The notes under the pieces: model-generated | What the model saw: the letters and a program-made list of their open reading frames with translations, nothing else | Databases searched by the model: none | Told to the model about the DNA's origin: nothing | Program-made: the position numbers and the translations under genes | NCBI GenBank assembly: GCA_025359945.1 | Contig: JANYDD010000059.1 | Location: 1 to 64,000 of the forward strand | Direction of reading: 5' to 3' | Length of the DNA stretch: 64,000 nucleotides | Origin: Bdellovibrio sp. | GTDB lineage: Bacteria; Bdellovibrionota; Bdellovibrionia; Bdellovibrionales; Bdellovibrionaceae | Shown: positions 58,840 to 60,895 of the stretch, piece after piece | How positions within the stretch are numbered: the first letter of the stretch is position 1 | Layout of the letters: each line of letters begins with the position of its first letter

Positions 58840-59946
58840 TTAGATATCTATGAGTATTCTGCAGCTTAAGCTTTGCAAGACGGACCCTTGAGACGCTGAG
58901 AAATACACTTTATTGTCGGTCACCTGTCGGTCAAACAAGAAATTCATTTTTTGAGGAAGTGAGTTTCGCAGATCGATTCTCCATTCTCGAGTACCCGAAA
59001 TGCTGGGCTTAAGAAAGTCTTCTATGCTTCCTGAAAACATGTCTTTGCCAAGAACGTATTTCTGCAGGCCAATCACATAAAATTTATTCACTTTGGTAGG
59101 GATTAAAATCAGACCCTCGATAAGATCTGAAGACTCTGAGAGAAAGAAATCAAAGTCGTAACTGTTACACCAGATCTGCTTTCCCGGGCCCAGAAGCTGA
59201 TCTAAATTGACAAATTGATAACCGCTCATCGCCAGTCCAACGGCGCGACGAACACGGCGTGAATCCACTTCAGGGCTTTGATCGCGTAAAAATTTGTAAA
59301 AAGCTTCATGTACAACTGCGGCTGCTTTATTGGTATTGTCCATGCGATCCCATAAGTCTTCATTCAATAAAATTTTAGGTGTTAACGAATTGTCGTTGTA
59401 AACCATCAGCTGGTGGACTTGACCGTCCGCTGGCCGGGCTTGCTCGAAGGAATCCGGAACCTCCTGAAGTTCAGTGCCGCTCAGCCTTAGAATATCTTCG
59501 TGGACTTTTAAAAGAAATGGTTCGCTCAAAGAGAAAAGCCAATCGTAGATTATGGTTTTAGATTTCGGGCCTTCTCGCCAGTCGAAATTCATCGAATTTT
59601 TGATATTTTTGAATGCCCGCTGGACCTGAACTTCTACCGAATCTGGGGAATACTGGATGGTCCGCTGAAAAATAATCTTGGCTTCCCACAGATCTAACAC
59701 CTCGACAGAGGTGATCTGACCCATTTCGCCTTACGTATGCACATGACGCCACCTACCTGTCGTGTTCGACTGGAGCGCATTCAAGTCGACAATATTCGAC
59801 AAGGCGAATTTGCTGGCGTCATGTGCATAGGTAGGCATTTCGCCGTTACGAACAACGACCTTCCCGCCGCCGCCACTGATGGCGCCGTCCATCGCAAGGC
59901 CATTGCAGGCGAACGTCAAAATCAAAATGCTAAATACTTTTTTCAT
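58840..59946 (-). pseudogene. Secreted-protein gene interrupted by a miniature insertion
   Basis: The N-terminal part starts at the ATG at 59946 with AGGAGG upstream and encodes a signal peptide (MKKVFSILILTFACNGLAM) and GGGGKVVVRNGEM. A 114-base insertion, counting one target copy, then adds 37 foreign codons and a TAA (59731-59733). The original frame resumes in the same register as MGQITSVEVLDLWEAK and runs to 58840 (294 residues). Without the insertion the product would be ~330 residues. The downstream part could be re-initiated at the ATG at 59724 but would not be exported. No enzymatic motif is seen. The original role is unknown. Confidence 0.75.
59722..59850. mobile_element. Miniature inverted-repeat element with flanking direct repeats
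   Basis: Flanking direct repeats: CATTTCGCCTTACG (59722-59735) and CATTTCGCCGTTACG (59836-59850), differing by one base. Between them lie exactly 100 bases with a perfect 16-bp inverted repeat: TATGCACATGACGCCA (59736-59751) and TGGCGTCATGTGCATA (59814-59829), plus CCTACC / GGTAGG copies. The layout fits a MITE with a target-site duplication. It encodes no transposase. Confidence 0.65.
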
Positions 59947-59990: not shown

Positions 59991-60070
59991 AGAATGTATC
60001 AGCAGTCGTCGACGAGGACATTCTTAGTTTATAAAATAAGTCCTTATAATTTTATATTTTGTAAACTAAG
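59991..60070. promoter_or_regulatory. Divergent control region with two inverted repeats
   Basis: Between the broken secreted-protein gene and the TIGR02147 regulator lie two dyads. CTTAGTTTATAAAAT (60023-60037) pairs with ATTTTGTAAACTAAG (60056-60070) at 14 of 15 positions, ending 9 bases before the regulator start. AGAATGT (59991-59997) pairs with ACATTCT (60018-60024), with CGTCGACG between them. These are likely binding sites for the regulator or for hairpins. Confidence 0.55.
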
Positions 60071-60079
60071 TTGTGAACT

Positions 60080-60895
60080 ATGAAACCCATTTTTGAATTC
60101 AACGACTACAAAAGTTTTCTGACATCTATTTTTGGTGGAGCTCGAACACGGACAGGTTTGCGCTCTCAGTTCTCGAAAAGCACCGGCTGTAGCCCCAGTT
60201 TAGTCTCGCAAATTTTGGGCGGCGACCGCGAGCTAAGCTTAGAGCAGGCCCACGCTGCGACTCAGTTTTTACAACTCAATAAGGACGAATCGCATTTCTT
60301 TCTTTTGTTAGTCCAAAAAAGCCGGGCCGGAAGTTTCAATTTGAAAAATTATTTTGAACATCAACTAGAAGAAGAAAGGACAAAGCGCCTCAGCCTAAAG
60401 AATCGCCTGGATGCAAAAGACTGTTTTTCAGAAAACTTTCAGTCGAAGTATTATAGCTCTTGGATTTATGCCGCGGTCCACGTTTCGGTTTCTGCTTCAC
60501 AGCTGTCAAGCGTTGATTCCATCTCGAAATATTTAAACGCGCCGGCAAGTCAGGTTTCAAAGGTCATTGAATTTCTTGTCGACGCTGGATTGGTGAAAAC
60601 TAGAAACGGTCAACTTAGCCTAGGAAAAAAACATATCCATTTGGGAAACGATTCGGAAAATATAATTAAGCACCATTCGAATTGGCGAACGCAGGCACTT
60701 CAATCTTTAGATTTAGAAGGTCGTCATGACCTGCACTATTCATCGGCCGTGACGATTTCGAAAGTAGACCAAGAAATTATTAAAAACCACTTAATGTCCT
60801 GTATTGAATCTACAAACAAAATAATTTCAACCTCGCCTGAGGAAGAAGTTTATAGCTTCAATCTGGATTTTTTCAGCTTAAGTAGAAAGCGCTAA
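60080..60895 (+). CDS. TIGR02147 (DUF4423) family regulator
   Basis: 271 residues. The N-terminus (FEFNDYKSFLTSIF) and the helix-turn-helix region (TGCSPSLVSQILGGDRELSLEQA) match TIGR02147, a family frequent in Fibrobacterota and Bdellovibrionota. A second winged-helix-like part follows (LNAPASQVSKVIEFLVDAGLVKTRNGQLSLG), then a DUF4423 region. It probably controls itself and the divergent gene through the palindromes upstream. Confidence 0.85.
   Translation: MKPIFEFNDYKSFLTSIFGGARTRTGLRSQFSKSTGCSPSLVSQILGGDRELSLEQAHAATQFLQLNKDESHFFLLLVQKSRAGSFNLKNYFEHQLEEERTKRLSLKNRLDAKDCFSENFQSKYYSSWIYAAVHVSVSASQLSSVDSISKYLNAPASQVSKVIEFLVDAGLVKTRNGQLSLGKKHIHLGNDSENIIKHHSNWRTQALQSLDLEGRHDLHYSSAVTISKVDQEIIKNHLMSCIESTNKIISTSPEEEVYSFNLDFFSLSRKR

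Follow-up and report, generated by a model that had tools for sequence, protein, structure and literature searches.

A 106-bp miniature inverted-repeat element, probably mobilised by an IS1595-family transposase, interrupts a secreted-protein gene in a Bdellovibrionota genome

Introduction

Prokaryotic miniature inverted-repeat elements (MITEs) are recognised as elements of less than about 400 bp that lack a transposase gene, carry terminal inverted repeats, occur in many dispersed copies with target duplications, and share their ends with an autonomous insertion sequence (IS). An IS1595-associated MITE of this kind, related to ISHwa6 and flanked by 8-bp duplications, is known from Haloquadratum walsbyi (PMC3852290). 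IS1595-family elements generate 8-bp target duplications (PMC8101967, PMC12561309), and those of the IS1595-family member ISApl4 are A/T-rich (PMC12561309). In-frame fusions of MITEs are also known, above all for the Rickettsia palindromic elements (PMC10969869).

Here we analysed a 64,000-nucleotide stretch of DNA (the window) in which a 106-bp MITE interrupts a secreted-protein gene. The MITE resembles that of Haloquadratum walsbyi in its IS1595 type and its 8-bp duplications, the inverted repeats of the latter being about 25 bp long; compared by description, the Haloquadratum element differs in having an archaeal host, in being longer (165 bp, compared with 106 bp here), and in its lower copy number (7, compared with 41 full-length copies here) (PMC3852290). 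It shares 8-bp duplications and A/T-rich targets with the ISXO2-like members of the IS1595 family such as ISApl4, whereas the ends of ISApl4 read GGGG... (PMC12561309) and those of the MITE CCTACC..., and the MITE contains no transposase. Like the Rickettsia palindromic elements, it is a short palindromic element that lies in open reading frames (ORFs) and is sometimes read through in frame. However, the Rickettsia elements are about 150 bp long and are very often fused in frame (PMC10969869), whereas the in-frame excess of the MITE is weak and statistically doubtful, and the clear 8-bp duplications of the MITE point to IS1595-type transposition. IS1595-type MITEs are already known from Haloquadratum, and the present MITE is a fresh example of a well-known element type; our literature searches did not find a report of a MITE for Bdellovibrionota.

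Results

The genome containing the window (G000) is a 2.74-Mb Bdellovibrionota draft assembly of 106 contigs. The perfect 16-bp inverted repeat TATGCACATGACGCCA that the original prediction had reported within 59722-59850 was confirmed at 59736-59751 and 59814-59829. Since the left tip CTTACG and the right tip GGTAGG were common to nearly all copies while the flanks varied, the element was determined to be 106 bp long rather than 100 bases as first proposed, and the 16-bp repeat forms the core of imperfect terminal inverted repeats of about 22 bp (Table 1). The extended arms of the inverted repeat were 20 bp in length and were separated by 62 bp. As had been supposed, the element had no gene of its own, and its sole ORF was a short open frame. 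A hairpin, which is attributable to the inverted repeats, was indicated at the locus by a fold z-score of -5.65, and neither an Rfam search nor a search of phage records with the locus gave a match.

An exact 8-bp duplication flanked 35 of the 41 full-length copies and a 7-bp duplication one more. The duplicated targets were A-rich and then T-rich, and the sites were unrelated. The 14/15-base target copies originally described were rejected because no copy had a duplication exceeding 8 bp; the longer appearance arose because the element tip CTTACG resembles the host sequence CGTTACG by chance. The element and its duplication amount to 106 + 8 = 114 bp, or 38 codons, and insertion therefore never shifts the frame. 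This divisibility by three, and not the loss of a base from one flank as had been suggested, kept the host register in the window, and neither flank was short of a base.

Table 1 Features of the interrupted gene and of the inserted element in the window.
Feature	Position	Strand	Remarks
5' part of interrupted secreted-protein gene	59836..59946	-	Signal peptide, GGGGK motif; matches L068 residues 36-69
3' part of interrupted gene	58840..59724	-	Matches L068 residues 72-313, E 5e-27
In-frame TAA from element tip	59731..59733	-	
Target site duplication CATTTCGC, left copy	59722..59729	.	Exact 8-bp repeat on both sides
Target site duplication CATTTCGC, right copy	59836..59843	.	Exact 8-bp repeat on both sides
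MITE, 106 bp	59730..59835	.	Ends set by comparing 41 copies whose flanks differ
Left terminal inverted repeat, 22 bp	59730..59751	+	20/22 match to the right repeat; 16-bp core perfect
Right terminal inverted repeat, 22 bp	59814..59835	-	Inward reading CCTACCTATGCACATGACGCCA

Copy numbers were taken from search matches and retrieved sequence stretches. The genome contained 41 full-length copies, 14 of which were identical to the copy in the window, whereas 16 differed from it at one position, 8 at two, and 3 at four to seven; accordingly, 38 of the 41 had at most two differences, and none showed a net change in length. A search with the 15-base core of the ends gave 94 matches, compared with 0 for a reversed control pattern, and further copies were located at contig ends or were split by an IS. 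The copy number, the excess over the control pattern, and the fold z-score all greatly exceed chance levels. The original prediction had suggested that many copies may exist in the genome and had named the absence of any other copy as an outcome against it, and the 41 near-identical copies agree with the suggestion. From this near-identity, we infer that the amplification of the MITE was recent. Two copies on contig C26 had no duplication, and the matching 8 bp were found at the ends of contigs C57 (AAGGATTG) and C63 (GAAATCTC); this suggests that the assembly was joined at repeats. In another copy (C13:741-846, L043), the outer tips were exchanged relative to the inner part, as recombination between its two inverted repeats would give, and the duplication matched at 7 of 8 positions.

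We then compared the interrupted gene with its homologues. A minus-strand ORF beginning at 59946 enters the element and ends at the TAA at 59733-59731, after which the frame resumes at 59724 and continues to 58840; the unbroken gene would encode about 355 amino acids. Homologues of the 3' part were present in 29 of 60 related genomes, and both parts lay side by side in single proteins of relatives (L068, L069, L071, and L078). In the last three of these, nothing lay between the two except the final residues of the 5' part, which had no match. The single in-frame TAA, the resumption of the host frame in register, and the breakage of a secreted-protein gene by one stop were thus as originally described. 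The empty site, the consistent absence of which had been named as an outcome against the prediction, was found, although only in divergent homologues with contiguous halves and not in a sister strain. A Pfam search with the interrupted gene gave no family match. We infer that the gene in the window is no longer functional.

The interrupted gene and a TIGR02147-family gene on the plus strand (60080-60895) are divergently oriented. A similar divergent pair was found in the same four relatives, and the pairing looks conserved. The divergent promoter region contains, at 60023-60070, a 16-bp inverted repeat, CTTAGTTTATAAAATA, with 94% complementarity, which is possibly an operator.

Subsequently, the ends of the MITE were compared with those of autonomous elements. 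The related genome G029 contains a complete IS, about 952 bp long, encoding an IS1595-family transposase with a DDE_Tnp_IS1595 domain (PF12762, E 3.4e-19) and a zinc ribbon (PF12760, E 5e-9). Its ends, CCTACCTATGCAC[C/T]TGACGCCGGTAAA, were identical to the right end of the MITE at 20 of 22 positions, and the IS1595 ends of the MITE's own genome at 19 of 22; the end sequence is thus common to the MITE and the IS1595-family elements of both genomes. By blastn, the IS1595 end in L092 gave a 29-bp match (E 5e-6). The inner part of the MITE did not match the IS. When genome_contigs was scanned with the motif CCNACCTATGCACNTGACGC, matches were found in three Bdellovibrionota assemblies only, either beside an IS1595 transposase or inside a MITE, and the end motif was not found in viral contigs. 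In the own assembly, a complete IS1595 element was not found; only terminal transposase fragments were present, located at contig ends (three identical 3' ends and a single 5' end), as expected because short-read assembly collapses repeats. A degenerate IS1595 transposase fragment was also observed on contig C40 (L039:756-935), about 270 bp from a MITE copy.

One of the six frames of the element was open and the other five contained stops. Among 19 insertions into long ORFs (18 in the own genome and one in the bin G060), seven were in the open frame, adding about 38 residues without a stop (L013, L010, L008, L032, L038, L044, and L087). They include a TIGR02147/DUF4423 protein (L008) and a 289-residue secreted protein (L087).

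An IS630-family element, complete in contig C100 (DDE_3, E 2.9e-27), was inserted into four MITE copies, on contigs C20, C41, C57, and C96 (L058, L060, L061, and L064). These represent four of the eight IS630 sites found, and three of the four were at a TA at position 25 of the MITE. As the MITE occupies 0.18% of the genome, the probability of this clustering was about 7e-10, or about 3e-6 if only an assumed non-coding 12% of the genome is open to IS630 insertion. Both target neutrality and sequence preference may contribute.

Two MITE copies with 99-100% identity were found in the bin JANXMF (G060), which represents another organism, its fumarase being 73% identical. One contig of this bin (L088) carries at its end the 5' side of an IS1595 insertion, the 3' side of which is the contig C47 (L049) of the own genome. 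The two contigs share the duplication GTAAAAAT, and the signal-peptide frame appears to continue across them; the insertion lies where another GGGG-motif gene encodes its signal peptide. Moreover, the tested flanks of L087, L088, and L090 were absent from the own genome. Because of this divided IS1595 insertion and these absent flanks, misbinning is a simpler explanation than horizontal transfer, and the MITE contigs of G060 may be misbinned contigs of the organism of the window. Spread of the MITE to another species was not adopted.

Discussion

The data are best accounted for by a 106-bp non-autonomous MITE mobilised in trans by an IS1595-family transposase, a reading to which we assign a probability of roughly 0.85. 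An IS1595-type transposase is the likely mover, judging from the likeness of the ends and the 8-bp duplications, the latter being those of the IS1595 family. The DDE transposase would bind and cut the inverted repeats of about 22 bp in trans and would insert the MITE at A/T-centred sites by means of a cut staggered by 8 bp. The consequence for a gene would then depend solely on the frame, among the six of the element, that is read.

Alternatively, the MITE could have been moved by a transposase from a different family with 8-bp duplications, the likeness of its ends to IS1595 ends being due to chance or convergence. The own assembly indeed has no complete IS1595 element and the end match is imperfect (19-20 of 22), but we regard this as unlikely in view of the 29-bp match to an IS1595 end, the confinement of the end motif to Bdellovibrionota assemblies in the company of an IS1595 transposase or a MITE, and the A/T-centred duplications that fit the family. 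Far less probable still is that the segment represents a palindrome with a structural or regulatory role (REP-like, a terminator, or an RNA element) spread by means other than transposition. Its strong hairpin and the location of about half of the copies outside long ORFs would suit such a palindrome; however, the hairpin is explained by the inverted repeats, Rfam gave no match, and exact 8-bp duplications occur at unrelated sites, about half of them inside long ORFs.

The open frame raises the question of whether the MITE is a frame-preserving protein invader of the kind seen in the Rickettsia palindromic elements, retained because it adds about 38 residues. The element and its duplication are divisible by three, and the open frame is both present and used in 7 of 19 long-ORF insertions. 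On the other hand, the excess has a P value of 0.037 (7/20) or 0.082 (6/19), depending on the count chosen, and the prior for divisibility of the length by three is 1/3. Furthermore, chance alone would be expected to yield an open frame, because one or more were present in 71% of shuffled elements, and the copy in the window itself introduces a stop. We therefore consider such retention improbable; the bias toward open-frame insertions is weak, and selection for the open frame is not claimed. It is likewise doubtful that the MITE family is both a protein invader, with 38-residue insertions tolerated and enriched, and an IS630 landing pad at one TA.

Taken together, these findings document an IS1595-type MITE that was recently amplified in a member of Bdellovibrionota. 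They otherwise represent ordinary mobile-element biology, and the effects on the interrupted gene are ordinary as well. The approximately 40 young insertions provide a natural set for asking how coding DNA tolerates palindromic inserts.
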